Source: Beijerinckiaceae bacterium
GTDB lineage: Bacteria; Pseudomonadota; Alphaproteobacteria; Rhizobiales; Beijerinckiaceae
Reading direction: 5' to 3'
DNA: 64,000 nt
Assembly: GCA_024304885.1 (NCBI GenBank)
Contig: JALJOM010000003.1
Span: forward strand, 2,638,110 to 2,702,109
Part shown: positions 6,766-41,429 of the stretch, piece after piece
Numbering within the stretch: position 1 is the stretch's first letter
How the letters are laid out: every line of letters starts with the position of its first letter
Translations under genes and position numbers: made by a program
Notes under the pieces: generated by a model
The model's input: only the letters and a program-made list of their open reading frames with translations
What the model was told of the DNA's origin: nothing
Database searches by the model: none

Positions 6766-7441
6766 ACGAGTCGACATCGTCCATTTGATCTACCGGCACA
6801 AGGGCACCGAGGGCCACGCACGCGACTAGGAGGTTTCCGGCACCTCGATGCGCGATCATCGGGATTCCGGCCACGAGGACACGCGGCGGTGCTTCTCGCC
6901 GCCGCGATTGTTTCCTCGATAGGAGTGACCCCCTAGCGGTCAGTTTCTTGCTGGCACTCGGCCGCGGGCTGAACTGCTACGTACTCGTGTGGGGATCTGG
7001 TGTACCATTTTTCCGCCTCGGATAACCGCTACGCCAGCCGAACGATCTCGCTTCTCGTGACATGTATGATCGTAGTGACAATTCGGTTGCCCCGGTCGAG
7101 CAAACGAGGGCCGCTGGCGACCATGTAGTGGCAATCCAGCACATCGCAACAGCCGCCGATACGGTGCTCGTCGCAGCAGGTAGATTGGCTCAACACGGCG
7201 ACATCGCAAAACGAAATTGCGACGAAACACGAATGTAGAGCTGCTTTCCGATTCGATCGGATCGGAAAGCGCTCTGGATCACGACGACTTTGGATCGAAT
7301 CGATCCAAAGTCATCGTGATCGATTGCAAAAGCTCAGAGCGGGATAGGCAGATAAGTCTACGCAATCTGCGTAAACGCGATTGCGCCGGAAACCGCTGTA
7401 CGCTTTTCCTCATCCCGCTCCAGCCGCGTCGTACGAGATCC
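6766..7441. other. Long intergenic region with palindromic elements
   Basis: This 676-bp stretch has no convincing gene. Its 5' half (6766-7200) shows nothing recognisable apart from a short direct continuation of the decarboxylase 3' end. Its 3' half (about 7204-7428) is filled by two adjacent members of the dispersed palindromic family listed separately. Short frames on both strands lack a codon pattern and ribosome sites. Confidence 0.6.
7204..7428. repeat. Dispersed palindromic element, copy 1 (compound)
   Basis: Contains TTTCCGATTCGATCGGAAA-type dyad symmetry around 7244-7268, then TTTGGATCGAATCGATCCAAA at about 7289-7309, then a block opening AGAGCGGGAT near 7336 and closing with CGCTTTTCCTCATCCCGCTC near 7399-7423. 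The same blocks recur at 24211, 27880, 31329, 39763 and 41264 in different combinations, so this is a modular repeat family and not a single terminator. Confidence 0.75.
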
Positions 7442-23788: not shown

Positions 23789-24211
23789 ATGGCGATCGAA
23801 CGTACTTTCTCTATCCTGAAGCCCGACGTAACGCGGCGCAATCTCACCGGTGCCGTCAATGCCCTGATCGAAAAGTCGGGTCTTCGGATCGTCGCCCAGA
23901 AGCGCGTGCAGATGACTCGCGAGCAGGCGGAGACCTTCTATGCGGTCCACAAGGCACGGCCGTTCTTCGGTGAGCTGGTCGAGACGATGATCGCGGGTCC
24001 CGTCGTGGTGCAGGTGCTCGAGGGCGAGGACGCGATCAAGAAATATCGCGACGTGCTCGGCGCGACCGACCCGGCCAAGGCCGAGCCCGGCACGATCAGG
24101 AAGGAATTCGCGGTCTCGCTCGGCGAGAACTCGGCGCATGGATCCGACGCTCCCGAGACCGCGTTGGTCGAGATCGCGCAATGGTTCTCCGGCAACGAGA
24201 TCGTCGGCTAG
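23789..24211 (+). CDS. ndk: Nucleoside diphosphate kinase
   Basis: 140 residues, full family length. It transfers the gamma phosphate between NTPs and NDPs through H117 in [12 protein letters not shown]. The nucleotide-binding KPDVTRRNL and the [11 protein letters not shown] loop are intact. Cytosolic housekeeping enzyme, divergent from hpnP. A palindromic element lies directly after its stop and may end the transcript. Confidence 0.97.
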
Positions 24212-24311
24212 GGCAATTTCCAGCGAAGCGGATCCCGCTTCGCGTCGCGAAATTGCGACGTGACGAGGATGCAGAGCGGATTACCGAGGCCGCGGGATCG
24301 GAAGCCGCTCC
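24211..24311. repeat. Dispersed palindromic element, copy 2
   Basis: Begins directly after the ndk stop with GGCAATTTCCAGCGAAGCGG and a dyad GCGAAGCGG/CCGCTTCGC, continues GTCGCGAAATTGCGACGTGACGAGGATG and ends AGAGCGG...GGATCGGAAGCCGCTC. Block order agrees with the copies at 31441-31540, 39763-39864 and 41264-41429. Confidence 0.75.
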
Positions 24312-24436
24312 AGCACGTCGCGGTGATCTCGGCAGCCCGTTGCCGCATATAGCAAAATCTTCTAATCTGCGCCGAACCTCACTGTAGCGGTAGAGCCTTG
24401 ATCGAAGGTTCGCAGCCACCGGAATGCGCGGCGCGG

Positions 24437-31207: not shown

Positions 31208-31562
31208 GGTCTCCCCCCGATCGCCCAGGTTACCTATCGCGCGTGTCCGCGTGCCGAGCTCCTCGGCCCGCGCCAGCCTGGTCGTGTCGTCACAAGCCTT
31301 GCCGCCGGGACGGTGGCACCGGGCTTAAAGCGGGACGAGTAAGAGCGGACACCGGTTTTCCGCCCACATCCGCTCTACACTCTCGGAATCGATCACGTTC
31401 ATGATCCTGGATCGATTCGATCCAAGGCCATCGCGATCTAGAGCAATTTCCAGCGAAGTGGATACCACTTCGCTGGAAATTGCGATAAAACAATAGCGTA
31501 GAGCAGGTTTCCGATTCGATCGGATCGGAAACCGCTCTAGGACGCCAATCGTTCGGGCAGCC
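31208..31562. other. Repeat-filled intergenic region
   Basis: Between two minus-strand genes. 31208-31328 is ordinary promoter-proximal sequence for the 425-residue gene. The remainder is the longest compound copy of the palindromic family (31329-31540), ending 22 bp before the next stop codon. Confidence 0.65.
31329..31540. repeat. Dispersed palindromic element, copy 4 (longest compound copy)
   Basis: From left: AGCGGGACGAG...AGAGCGGA with CCGGTTTTCCG, then GGATCGATTCGATCC (31409-31423), then CAATTTCCAGCGAAGTGG/CCACTTCGCTGGAAATTG, a perfect 18-bp inverted repeat around 4 bases, then GGTTTCCGATTCGATCGGATCGGAAACC near 31506-31533 and CGCTCTAG. It gives the clearest view of each module. Confidence 0.8.
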
Positions 31563-35746: not shown

Positions 35747-35949
35747 CCGAACGGCTGCAAAGAACGTTTGCACAAGAAAAGAAAGTATCTAATCAAACGG
35801 CTGGAGTTCCGATGACGCCGTCCTGCATTTCATTGATTTAGAATAATTAATCTTCTGATCCCTCGTGGCACGAGCCTTGCGCTCCGAGCATCACCGGCGA
35901 CCGGCCGCGACAAGGGCCGGCGCCTCGGGTGGAAGGCTTGGAGGAGTTC
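35747..35949 (+). promoter_or_regulatory. hhyS upstream region with enhancer-like AT-rich DNA
   Basis: 203 bp between the zinc-ribbon gene and hhyS. 35760-35860 is unusually AT-rich for this genome (GAATAATTAATC around 35840-35851), a likely IHF bend and HoxA-type binding area. The sigma54 core lies at 35866-35880. Confidence 0.6.
35866..35880 (+). promoter_or_regulatory. Sigma54 (-24/-12) promoter of the hydrogenase operon
   Basis: TGGCACGAGCCTTGC: TGGCAC, 5-base spacer, TTGC, identical to the consensus elements. Lies 70 bp before the hhyS ATG and downstream of a sigma54 activator gene. Confidence 0.9.
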
Positions 35950-36912
35950 ATGGCCAATCTCTTGTGGCTTCAGGGCGGCGCCTGCTCGGGCAATACGATG
36001 TCGTTCCTCAATGCCGAGGAGCCGAGTGCCTGCGATCTCGTGACCGATTTCGGCATCAATGTCTTGTGGCATCCCTCGCTCGGCCTCGAGCTCGGCGACA
36101 ACGTCAAGCAGATCCTCCAGGATTGCGTGAGCGGCACGATCCCGCTCGATATTTTCGTCTTCGAAGGCACGGTGGTGAACGCCCCGAACGGAACCGGCAA
36201 CTGGAACCGGTTCTGCGGCCGCCCGATGAAGGACTGGGTCAAGGAATTGTCCGACGCGGCGCAGTTCGTCGTCGCGATCGGCGATTGCGCGACCTGGGGC
36301 GGCATTCCCGCGACGGCGCCGAACCCGAGCGAATCGGTCGGCCTCCAGTTCCTGAAGCGCGCCCCGGGCGGCTCCCTCGGCACCGGCTTCAAGTCGAAGG
36401 CGGGGCTGCCCGTGATCAACATCCCCGGCTGCCCGGCGCATCCGGACTGGGTGACGCAGATCCTCGTCGCGGTGGCCTCCGGCCGGGGCGGAGACCTCTC
36501 GCTCGACGAGTTCCAGCGGCCGAAGACCTTCTTCTCGACCTTCACCCAGACGGGATGCACCCGCAACATGCATTTCGCCTACAAGGTCTCGGCGACGGCC
36601 TTCGGCCAGCGCAAGGGCTGCCTCTTCTACGACCTCGGCTGCCGCGGCCCGATGACCCACAGCCCGTGCAACCGAGTGCTGTGGAACCGGCAATCCTCGA
36701 AGACCCGCGCCGGAATGCCCTGCCTCGGCTGCACGGAGCCGGAGTTCCCCTTCTACGATCTCGCGCCCGGCACGGTGTTCAAGACCCAGACCGTCATGGG
36801 CGTGCCGAAGGACATGCCCGCCGGCGTGGACAAGACCGGCTATGTCAAGCTCACCGCCGCCGCCAAGGGTGCCGCCCCCGCCTGGGCCGAGCAGGATATT
36901 TTCGTCGTCTGA
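35950..36912 (+). CDS. hhyS: Group 1h [NiFe]-hydrogenase small subunit
   Basis: 320 residues, carrying Fe-S clusters that pass electrons from the Ni-Fe site. It has no twin-arginine signal, as in group 1h, so it is cytosolic or peripheral. Where other groups have CTGCS, this one reads GGACSG, leaving one Cys (C12); the Ralstonia eutropha group 1h enzyme uses three Cys and one Asp at its proximal cluster. Further cluster motifs are CTRNMHFAYK, CLFYDLGCRGP and PCLGCTEPEFPF. The ATG at 35950 has GGAGGAG just before it. First structural gene, followed 50 bp later by hhyL. Confidence 0.93.
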   Translation: MANLLWLQGGACSGNTMSFLNAEEPSACDLVTDFGINVLWHPSLGLELGDNVKQILQDCVSGTIPLDIFVFEGTVVNAPNGTGNWNRFCGRPMKDWVKELSDAAQFVVAIGDCATWGGIPATAPNPSESVGLQFLKRAPGGSLGTGFKSKAGLPVINIPGCPAHPDWVTQILVAVASGRGGDLSLDEFQRPKTFFSTFTQTGCTRNMHFAYKVSATAFGQRKGCLFYDLGCRGPMTHSPCNRVLWNRQSSKTRAGMPCLGCTEPEFPFYDLAPGTVFKTQTVMGVPKDMPAGVDKTGYVKLTAAAKGAAPAWAEQDIFVV

Positions 36913-36962: not shown

Positions 36963-38564
36963 ATGGCCGAAGCTGCCCTTCAAACCCTCGATATTTCCCC
37001 CGTCGGCCGCGTCGAGGGTGACCTCGACGTGCGCGTCGATATCGCCGACGGCGTCGTCGTCAATGCCTGGACCCAAGCCGAGCTCTTCCGCGGCTTCGAG
37101 ATCATCTTGCGCGACAAGGACCCACAGGCGGGGTTGGTGGTGACGCCCCGCGCCTGCGGCATCTGCGGCGCCTCGCATCTCACCTGCGCAGCCTGGGCGC
37201 TCGACACGGCCTGGGGCACCACCGTGCCCCGCAATGCGATCCTCGCCCGCAACCTCGGCCAGCTCGCCGAGTCGCTGCAGAGCCTGCCGCGCCACCACTA
37301 CGGCCTGTTCATGATCGACTACACGAACAAGGCCTATGCCGCGAGCCCCTACTACGAGGAGGCGGTGAAGCGCTGGTCGCCCTTCACCGGAACCAACTAC
37401 GAGCTCGGCGTCACGATCTCGGGGCGCCCTGTGGAAATCTACGCGCTGCTCGGCGGGCAATGGCCGCATTCGAGCTACATGGTGCCGGGCGGCGTCATGT
37501 GCGCCCCGACGCTGACCGACGTCACGAGATCCTGGTCGATCCTCGAGCATTTCCGCCGCAACTGGATGGAGCCGGTCTGGCTCGGCTGCTCGCTCGAGCG
37601 CTACGAGGAGATCAAGAGCTACGAGGATTTCCTCGCCTGGCTCGACGAACGCCCTGAGCACGCCAATTCCGACCTCGGCTTGTATTGGCGGATGAGCCTC
37701 GATATCGGGCTCGACAAGTACGGCAAGGGCCACGGCAAGTATGTCACCTGGGGCTATCTGCCCCACGAGGACAAGTACAACAAGCCGACGATCGAGGGCC
37801 GCAACGCCGCGGTCATCATGAAGAGCGGCGTCTATGACGGCAAGACCGACACCCACAAGCTGATGGACCAGACCTTTACCCGCGAGGATACGTTGCATTC
37901 GTGGTACGACGAGGCGGGTCCGGTTCATCCCTTCGATCGCACCACGAAGCCGATCGCCAAGAACGACGTCGATCCTGCCGGCAAGTATTCCTGGGCGACC
38001 GCCGTCGGCCACAGCGACAACGGAAGGCTCGAGGCGGGTCCGCTCGCGCGCCAGCTCGTCGCCGGCGGCACCCATGGCGAGAGCTGGCAGCACCACGATC
38101 CGCTCGTCCTCGACATGTATCGCAAGATGGGCGGCGCGAGCGTGATGTTGCGCCATTTCGCCCGCATGCACGAGGGCGTCAAAATCTACCGCCAGATCGA
38201 GCATGTGCTGCGCGAGCTGCGCCTCGCCGACGAGTGGTATATCAAGCCCGCGGAGAAGGACGGGCGCGGCTGGGGCGCGACGGAGGCGATCCGCGGCGCG
38301 CTCTGCCACTGGATCGAGGTCCAGGGCGGCAAGATCAAGAACTACCAGATCATCGCCCCGACCACCTGGAACGTCGGCCCGCGGGCCTCGACGGGGGAGC
38401 GCGGCCCGATCGAGGAGGCCTTGATCGGCACGCCGATCAAGGATCCGCACGATCCGGTCGAGGTCGGCCACGTCGCCCGCTCCTACGATTCCTGCCTCGT
38501 CTGCACCGTGCACGCGCATGACGCGAAGACGGGGGACGAGCTGGCACGGTTCCGGACGGCGTGA
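36963..38564 (+). CDS. hhyL: Group 1h [NiFe]-hydrogenase large subunit
   Basis: 533 residues holding the Ni-Fe centre. L1 motif: C65 and C68 in PRACGICGASH. L2 motif: C511, C514 and H517 in DSCLVCTVH. The 16 residues after H517 form the tail removed on maturation, consistent with the protease gene nearby. ISPVGRVEGDLDVRVDI and GPRASTGERGPIEEALIGTPIKDPHDPVE are typical of uptake hydrogenase large subunits. The class is known for high H2 affinity and oxygen tolerance. The start at 36963 is decided by the family N-terminus. Confidence 0.96.
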   Translation: MAEAALQTLDISPVGRVEGDLDVRVDIADGVVVNAWTQAELFRGFEIILRDKDPQAGLVVTPRACGICGASHLTCAAWALDTAWGTTVPRNAILARNLGQLAESLQSLPRHHYGLFMIDYTNKAYAASPYYEEAVKRWSPFTGTNYELGVTISGRPVEIYALLGGQWPHSSYMVPGGVMCAPTLTDVTRSWSILEHFRRNWMEPVWLGCSLERYEEIKSYEDFLAWLDERPEHANSDLGLYWRMSLDIGLDKYGKGHGKYVTWGYLPHEDKYNKPTIEGRNAAVIMKSGVYDGKTDTHKLMDQTFTREDTLHSWYDEAGPVHPFDRTTKPIAKNDVDPAGKYSWATAVGHSDNGRLEAGPLARQLVAGGTHGESWQHHDPLVLDMYRKMGGASVMLRHFARMHEGVKIYRQIEHVLRELRLADEWYIKPAEKDGRGWGATEAIRGALCHWIEVQGGKIKNYQIIAPTTWNVGPRASTGERGPIEEALIGTPIKDPHDPVEVGHVARSYDSCLVCTVHAHDAKTGDELARFRTA

Positions 38565-39256: not shown

Positions 39257-39739
39257 ATGCTCGTCGTGATCGGCTGCGGCAATTCCAATCGATGCGACGA
39301 TGCTGTCGGCGTTCGCGTCGTACAGCGCCTCCTCGCCGCGGGTCTCCGGCGTGCCGGCGCGGTCGAGATTTTCGACGCCGGCACGAGCGGCATGGACATC
39401 ATGTTCCAGGCGCGCGGGGCCGACAGGCTCGTCATTGTCGATGCCTGCACGAGCGGAAGCGAGCCCGGTGCCGTTTTCGAGGTCCCGGGCACCGAGCTCG
39501 AGAACCGGCCGGTGCCGAGCTACACGCTCCACGATTTTCGCTGGGACCACGCGCTTTATGCCGGGCGGCAAATCTTCGGCGACGCCTTTCCCCGCGACGT
39601 GACCGTCTTTCTCGTCGAGGCGAAGGACCTCGGGTTCGGGCTCGACCTCTCCGCCCCTGTGGCCCGCGCCGCCGGGCTCGTCGAAGAGCGGATCGCGGCC
39701 CTGATCTCGGCCTATGTCGCGGCCGAGCTGCCCGCATGA
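39257..39739 (+). CDS. [NiFe]-hydrogenase maturation protease
   Basis: 160 residues of the HyaD/HycI/HoxW family, which clips the C-terminal tail of the large subunit after nickel insertion. MLVVIGCGNSNRCDDAVG carries the first acidic Ni-sensing residue (usually DEG), VIVDACTSGSEPG the second, and LHDFRWDHAL the His. All three metal-site positions are therefore present, the first as Asp. Expected substrate: HhyL. Its TGA overlaps the next gene as ATGA. Confidence 0.88.
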   Translation: MLVVIGCGNSNRCDDAVGVRVVQRLLAAGLRRAGAVEIFDAGTSGMDIMFQARGADRLVIVDACTSGSEPGAVFEVPGTELENRPVPSYTLHDFRWDHALYAGRQIFGDAFPRDVTVFLVEAKDLGFGLDLSAPVARAAGLVEERIAALISAYVAAELPA

Positions 39740-40179
39740 ACGACCGCGAGCGGGAGGCATCGGAGCATTTTCCAGCGGACCGGACATCGGGTCGCGTCGC
39801 GAACATGCGACACGACGAGGATGGAGAGCGGGCTACCGATTCAGCCGGATCGGAAATCGCGCTCGTCGCGAGGATCGCCCGCGATCATCTCTATATCGAC
39901 GCCGCGGCCTACGATCGCCATCTCGCTCCCGCCGGCAACGTGGCGCTCTTGCGCGAGAACGACGACCTCTTGATCCTCCCGGTGCTAGGAAAGGGCTCGG
40001 GTGGCTTCTACGTGAAGCAGGTCAATGCCCGCGGCGATCGGGCCGTGCATGCCGCCGATTTCCTGCGGCTCAACGGGATCGACGAGACCGTCGAGCACCA
40101 CGTCGCCGCCGCCTGGAGCGGACGCATCATCGGCTATGCCGTCAGAGACTTTTTTGCGCATACGCGCGCCTGCAAGTAG
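39736..40179 (+). CDS. Hydrogenase-operon protein of unknown function carrying a palindromic element
   Basis: 147 residues, no family recognised. Translation starts at an ATG overlapping the protease stop (ATGA), so residues 10-43 are almost certainly translated. Those residues are encoded by a copy of the dispersed palindromic family (39763-39864) and are polar (EHFPADRTSGRVANMRHDED). The remainder, from about residue 44, looks like a compact domain (ALVARIARDHLYIDAAAYDRH, NVALLRENDDLLILPVLGKG). The insertion seems to have lengthened the N-terminus without disrupting the frame. Confidence 0.68.
   Translation: MNDREREASEHFPADRTSGRVANMRHDEDGERATDSAGSEIALVARIARDHLYIDAAAYDRHLAPAGNVALLRENDDLLILPVLGKGSGGFYVKQVNARGDRAVHAADFLRLNGIDETVEHHVAAAWSGRIIGYAVRDFFAHTRACK
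39763..39864. repeat. Dispersed palindromic element, copy 5, inside a coding sequence
   Basis: GAGCATTTTCCAGCGGACCG, then GTCGCGTCGCGAACATGCGAC, GACGAGGATGGAGAGCGG, then CCGATTCAGCCGGATCGG and GAAATCGCGCTC. It is about 100 bp long, nearly the same length as copy 2, and the reading frame of the host gene stays open across it. Confidence 0.75.
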
Positions 40180-41256: not shown

Positions 41257-41263
41257 GCGCCTC

Positions 41264-41429
41264 GAGCATTTTCCAGCGAAACGGATGCCGGCTCGCATTT
41301 CGTCGGCGATGCTTCGTCATTTCGATCCCGATGTTTCGATAGATCGACATCGATGCGACATCGCAATGCGAGAATGCGACAACACGAGAATGTAGAACAC
41401 TATCCGATTCGATCGGAAAACACTCTACG
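41264..41429. repeat. Dispersed palindromic element, copy 6
   Basis: Opens GAGCATTTTCCAGCGAAACG, includes GACATCGATGCGACATCGCAATGCGAG-type dyads, then CACGAGAATGTAGA and closes TATCCGATTCGATCGGAAAACACTCTA. It is longer than copies 2 and 5 by about 65 bp in the middle. Lies between the TPR gene and the first small membrane protein. Confidence 0.72.

Follow-up and report, generated by a model that had tools for sequence, protein, structure and literature searches.

Here, we report that a gene for a 147-residue hydrogenase accessory protein in a Beijerinckiaceae bacterium most likely contains a copy of a high-copy palindromic repeat inserted in frame, as judged by comparison with orthologous sequences. 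The net insert is approximately 102 nt, or 34 codons, with breakpoints that are inferred. We consider it highly probable that this insertion, together with a MITE-like mode of spread that targets CTAG, taken as one explanation, accounts for the observations described below. The features discussed are as follows, in coordinates of the window, that is, the whole stretch of DNA that was analysed (64,000 nucleotides).

7213..7276, + strand: partial element copy, second palindrome
23789..24211, + strand: nucleoside diphosphate kinase (ndk) gene, ending exactly at the element TAG; PF00334 135/135
24208..24314, + strand: element copy whose first CTAG contains the ndk TAG stop
31438..31541, + strand: element copy with CTAG at both ends
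35929..36912, + strand: [NiFe] hydrogenase small subunit; NF045520 8e-40 and TIGR00391 8.1e-36, below curated cut-offs
36969..38564, + strand: [NiFe] hydrogenase large subunit; NF033181 4e-93, below curated cut-off; the coordinates are those of the stretch scanned, and the start is not set
39257..39739, + strand: hydrogenase maturation protease (HycI/TIGR00072), directly upstream of the accessory gene with overlapping stop and start; TIGR00072 1.1e-34
39736..40179, + strand: 147-aa hydrogenase accessory gene carrying the insert; open ORF whose ATG overlaps the protease stop
39761..39866, + strand: degenerate copy of the palindromic element, lying in frame across codons 9/10 to 43
41261..41427, + strand: longer composite element copy with a middle insertion

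The accessory gene and its orthologues

Family searches identify small and large hydrogenase subunits and a maturation protease in the operon, and excerpts of PMC12319191 report a group 1h hydrogenase in Methylocapsa aurea, group 1h being the label that an earlier note gave to the present locus. The 147-aa protein itself matched no Pfam or NCBIfam family. Its ATG overlaps the protease TGA (39737-39739), and the ORF (39736-40179) runs open through the element, as described in an earlier note made from the window sequence. That note placed the element at 39763-39864, which is roughly right; with the degenerate CTAG ends it is slightly wider, at 39761-39866. The proposal that this is a copy of a repeat is well supported. 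A repeat search of the window paired 39765-39860 with 24213-24308 (78% over 96 nt, ungapped), blastn with the focal stretch found 45 places in its own genome, including itself (next best E 2.8e-24), and a covariance model recovered the focal copy at 39761-39866 with 2.7e-23, a value helped by the presence of this copy among the 18 from which the model was built. The repeat search also gave further copies in the window at approximately 7213-7275, 31423-31538 and 41246-41296/41355-41396. Of the two copies cited previously as non-coding counterparts, that at 24211 is indeed non-coding, yet its start is the TAG stop of ndk, and that at 41264, although a repeat copy, is actually a longer variant (41261-41427) with an insertion in the middle.

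An insertion predicts orthologues that lack residues 10-43, and such orthologues were found in both sets that we assembled. The insert is missing in 10/10 orthologues found among 98 relatives, all of which follow the protease gene; G007, in which the match covers the element part only, was not counted as an orthologue. An alignment-based search of genome contigs, where a single-protein search matched nothing, gave 39 orthologue loci, and the insert is missing in 37/37 that are readable. Each of these 37 has a protease frame upstream; L330, in which the protease and the accessory protein are fused, and the truncated L335 were excluded since the boundary is unreadable. The two sets overlap in at least six genomes. 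When the 34 codons are removed, the focal protein reads MNDREREA|LVARIARDHLYID, comparable with MNGAIPEAGALPLRLHRDHLYID. All seven columns that are invariant across 35 orthologues are kept in the focal protein, and no column conserved at 90% or more is changed. The length of the N-terminus is itself variable among orthologues, with longer, unrelated tails in L040 and L313. As a separate observation, L330:2509-3285, from an uncultured alphaproteobacterial MAG, holds protease and accessory protein in one frame, an apparent fusion.

Before the core, in-frame ATG, GTG or TTG codons occur only at codons 1 and 24, and the next is a GTG at codon 69, within the core. With no such codon in the interval from 24 to 69, translation is expected to cover the element at least in part. 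An obvious ribosome-binding sequence is seen at neither codon 1 nor codon 24. When orthologue starts are set to whichever start codon comes closest to the stop of the protease gene, 22/37 orthologues of the second set have the same 4-nt stop/start overlap, and this shared arrangement favours codon 1. It also argues against the possibility that the element is untranslated, the true start lying downstream and the palindrome forming a leader hairpin between the protease and accessory genes. Two observations lend support to such a hairpin: the element RNA folds somewhat better than shuffled sequences (z -2.25), and Di Nocera et al. inferred that REPs located at annotated N-termini are in many cases non-coding (excerpts of PMC3733652). 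However, the 181-nt region around the start folds no better than shuffles (z -0.84), and a start after residue 43 would require either a codon other than ATG, GTG or TTG or the loss of conserved core; codon 69 as a start, for instance, would remove RDHLYID, a conserved strand. Codon 24 lies inside the element, half of which would still be translated from there. An untranslated element is therefore very unlikely. In the AlphaFold model, residues 1-40 are unstructured (pLDDT blocks 62-67) while the core is predicted with blocks of 86-97, and a Foldseek comparison of the model with the PDB gave no match at E <= 0.001. Most likely, the insert is translated and forms a disordered N-terminal tail.

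Whether such a tail is of any use to the protein is a separate matter. The insert could have been co-opted, for instance to form a contact tail or a hairpin that tunes coupled translation, and then kept by selection, and it is true that its frame is open despite about 20 substitutions. Against this, the substitutions fall at codon positions as 8, 5 and 7, counts that give no signal of protein-level constraint on the insert; the region is predicted to be unstructured; and 24/59 other copies with 16-23 substitutions likewise have an open frame and a length divisible by three. These divergence counts used 150 of 176 copies, as did those of pair conservation, and the focal length match in the divergence comparison is not clean, as the aligner gave the focal copy a 1-nt gap. 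Co-option thus appears highly improbable. As similar copies are so often open, the open frame alone is weak evidence, and it is the orthologue comparisons that carry the case. Still less probable, to the point that we give it little weight, is that the insertion is a lesion in a decaying accessory gene. A repeat has been inserted into coding sequence, as a lesion would be, yet all the invariant columns are kept, the frame is open to its stop and the core is modelled with confidence.

The repeat family and its copies within genes

The consensus element is 106 nt long and consists of two palindromes, with ends CTAGAGC and GCTCTAG that form terminal inverted repeats, as in MITEs. A GTAG occurs inside the element, where the second palindrome begins, and the ends are CTAG, conserved at 74-96% per base (126 of 150 copies). 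Four of the six frames of the consensus are free of stops (136 of 150 copies counted). The covariance model gave at least 150 matches in the genome, and a pattern for palindrome 1 with up to 3 mismatches matched 178 places versus 0 for a reversed control pattern. We worked with 176 copies, comprising 150 covariance-model matches and 26 from the palindrome-1 pattern. No Rfam family matched in the window at the gathering threshold. The two palindromes form strong hairpins in the consensus (z -7.6 against shuffles) and in an intact copy (z -7.0), and the focal copy folds less well (z -2.25); decay of the fold is not peculiar to the coding copy, however, since the intergenic copy at 24211 has a z of -1.91. 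Among five close tandem pairs, 4/5 are spaced at 102-103 nt and one at 194, and at G000:C3:2351726-2352034 (L030) three copies are arranged head to tail, the period being 102 nt.

Scoring of copies throughout the genome, by which the earlier note proposed to count those in frames kept open, gave in-frame read-through in at least 4/176 copies, with a fifth that is weak. Flanking frames were scored with a codon model, making 4/176 a lower bound, and the read-through cases were taken from 16 of 64 listed candidate frames. As the model separates weakly (median of 0.42 per codon for true frames and a 95th percentile of 0.29 for false frames), counts of genic copies and of gene ends are approximate. 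Numerous long open frames among the copies resemble noise of GC-rich sequence under this model and were set aside.

Three further read-through copies share orientation and frame with the focal copy. The clearest is in an ImuA-like protein (46.8 bits to NF033429, short of its cut-off of 150), whose orthologues match in abutting pieces that skip about residues 84-116. The gap is present in 9/9 aligned orthologues, these being 9 of 15 orthologue loci, as six were missed by the frame filter. This insertion (L228; L009:1501-1599) is clean and falls immediately before the conserved KAAPIVWILED. In a TonB-type protein, the element occupies an unconserved linker preceding TonB_C, as judged from 4 of 13 orthologue loci; since linkers vary, insertion here is no more than likely. 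In a DUF3419 protein, the element starts from residue 356, just where the match to the Pfam profile runs out (384/385), and adds a tail of about 45 residues. This case rests on the profile and on match ends: 12 orthologue matches end at 355-384, and six run over an in-frame stop. The fifth, weak copy (C3:1332654) is read in another phase and gives the same peptide after an indel. In four more cases, a gene frame comes to its stop within an element, and inspection of 20 further places (11 in Methylocapsa aurea, 9 in G000) revealed no convincing mid-gene insertion. We also considered pair conservation as a mark of coding copies and rejected it: of 36 pairs, 30 are kept in the focal copy, 34 in the ImuA-like, 32 in the DUF3419 and 27 in the TonB copy, as compared with a mean of 0.855 of pairs in other copies with 16-23 substitutions.

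Gene ends, CTAG sites and a proposed route of insertion

Of 352 element sides, 350 were tested for adjoining genes, and 142 have a confident co-directed gene end within 300 nt. Forty-four of the 142 gene ends fall exactly at the element edge (43 TAG, 1 TAA), while any other distance occurs at most 4 times. In a separate screen of 54 sides in which a coding frame reaches the element, we counted 46 stops at the edge, 4 inside the element and 4 read-throughs; the focal gene is not in this screen because too little of it precedes the element. Among six proteins with an end at the element edge that were compared with Pfam, four reach the end of the profile (citrate synthase 357/357, the GyrB C-terminal domain 63/63, NDK 135/135 and HPPK 116/116). 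The other two stop short of it (NAD_kinase_C 95/126 and AA_kinase 220/234), the proteins continuing for 45 and 32 residues; peptidase M3, which ends in TGA one base off, was left out. The same arrangement is seen on plasmids, where the CDS ends in the first TAG of the element in 3/3 records examined. Accordingly, the matches H15, H16 and H25 were rejected as insertions in CDS, as the element starts at the TAG stop. Ten further plasmid rows have a CDS under the match, seven from R. leguminosarum, two from Novosphingobium and one from Martelella. In RsmH (MraW; L006 / G000:C3:2304549), the edge TAG is CAG, with an apparent 21-residue C-terminal extension encoded by the element.

CTAG is strongly depleted, with 12 observed in the 64-kb window versus 200 expected from base composition. 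We classified CTAG sites against predicted genes in 547 kb of the organism's own sequence, a sample enriched for elements. The 213 sites away from elements comprise 150 intergenic sites, 30 stops, 24 read as CTA|G and 9 as xCT|AG; at elements, the counts are 127 intergenic, 28 stops, 4 CTA|G and 1 xCT|AG. With only 30/213 element-free sites being stops, stops are one class of target and not the main one. One element-free CTAG, at window position 39985, lies in the core of the same accessory gene and is read CTA|G (Leu-Gly).

From the spike of gene ends at the element edge and the tandem period, we infer that the repeat would be MITE-like, mobile but non-autonomous, with CTAG as its insertion site, duplicated in the process. 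The rarity of CTAG, above all within genes, would then explain why most copies are intergenic. At a site read C|TAG at the end of a gene, the gene would retain its own amber stop and the protein would be unchanged. At a site read CTA|G (Leu plus G) within a gene, insertion would add 98 + 4 = 102 nt, or 34 codons, in a stop-free frame. The target in the accessory gene was probably the Leu codon of 'AL' directly before the folded core: the codons at the 3' edge of the insert, CTC GTC (Leu-Val), are compatible with a CTA|G that has since mutated, and three of the four closest orthologues have Leu in 'GAL' at the corresponding position. As the added residues would lie in a disordered tail, the protein could continue to work as the copy diverges by drift and its palindromes erode.

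It is conceivable that there is no targeting at all, and that the elements bring their own CTAG ends, insert at random and are filtered by selection, which leaves gene-enders that are in phase. The edge TAG is read in one of three phases only, so selection could enrich it, and the two edge-enders of six that stop short of the profile end are in keeping with this. Random insertion should, however, yield truncations, yet the other four reach the profile end, and we regard this account as unlikely. CTAG targeting remains the reading that we prefer. A further idea is that the family has been shaped to spare proteins: genes avoid its CTAG target, which can also form part of an amber stop, and where coding sequence is hit nonetheless, the net length of 34 codons and the stop-free CTA frame would give in-frame peptide inserts. 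We put this forward tentatively and with more doubt than confidence. If true, the family would continually supply Hyphomicrobiales proteins with new tails and linkers.

Known repeats and distribution of the family

The earlier note likened the element to Rickettsia palindromic elements (RPEs). The likeness holds for behaviour, in that both are palindromic, of the same size class, present in many copies and found in frame within protein genes; this is seen by orthologue comparison for the focal and ImuA-like genes and less strongly for TonB and DUF3419. It does not extend to the genic share: nearly half of RPEs lie in ORFs, where in-frame insertion is established (excerpts of PMC10969869), as opposed to 4/176 copies here, or five with the weak one. 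The host also differs, being a member of the Hyphomicrobiales that is not obligately intracellular as far as its relatives tell, and the ends here are CTAG.

REPs have likewise been described in frame in several bacteria, N-terminal cases included, with ends that supply TAG stops. In particular, GTAG/CGTC REPs resemble the present family in being palindromes that decorate proteins, in the GTAG ends that often give flanking ORFs their TAG stops, and in having DNA-repair genes among their targets, to be compared with the ImuA-like protein here. They differ in being units of 20-40 bp that are often near Y1 transposases (all in excerpts of PMC3733652). The present element is a single 106-nt double palindrome, and Y1_Tnp (PF01797) gave 0 matches in its own genome while present in 5/14 controls. 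Br-REP1/2 of Bradyrhizobium are different sequences (excerpts of PMC5082802). With bacterial MITEs, the family, a putative mobile element, shares short length, presumed lack of autonomy, terminal inverted repeats, probable target duplication and occasional in-frame fusions (excerpts of PMC10969869); it is distinguished by the association with CTAG and amber stops.

In-frame insertion of palindromes is thus a phenomenon already known from Rickettsia and REPs. What appears to be new is the association with CTAG and amber stops coupled to a gain of 34 codons, of which we found no description in the literature searched; our searches also found none that pairs Methylocapsa with such repeats. CTAG avoidance and MITEs have been described in a haloarchaeon, with no link drawn between them in the excerpts of PMC3119063. 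Our findings extend in-frame palindromes, of which those of Rickettsia are best known, to a hydrogenase accessory protein and to an organism that belongs to the Methylocapsa/Methylocella genus and is related to methane-oxidising bacteria, and the clean insertion in the ImuA-like protein provides a second case. The spike of gene ends at the element TAG suggests a simple rule, landing on rare CTAG sites including natural amber stops, which would also account for repeats that seldom harm genes.

Similar elements are present in 21/60 genomes searched, the organism's own included, and, at 75-81% identity, in 6 plasmid records from Bradyrhizobium and Methylobacterium; a tblastn search of plasmids with a consensus-like 35-aa element peptide gave no match. 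Rhizobium intergenic mosaic elements (RIME) are two-palindrome repeats of about this size in Hyphomicrobiales. In S. meliloti, 33 of the 106 nt of the present element match at 90.9% (E 6e-3, 5 plasmid records). A profile of the element peptide has 113 matches in the Methylocapsa aurea genome, and the copies read from it (L341-L351) are very uniform, with the peptide LEHFRAKWxPVRVKKMRQNKDLELLSDSAETESAL, which suggests a recent burst.
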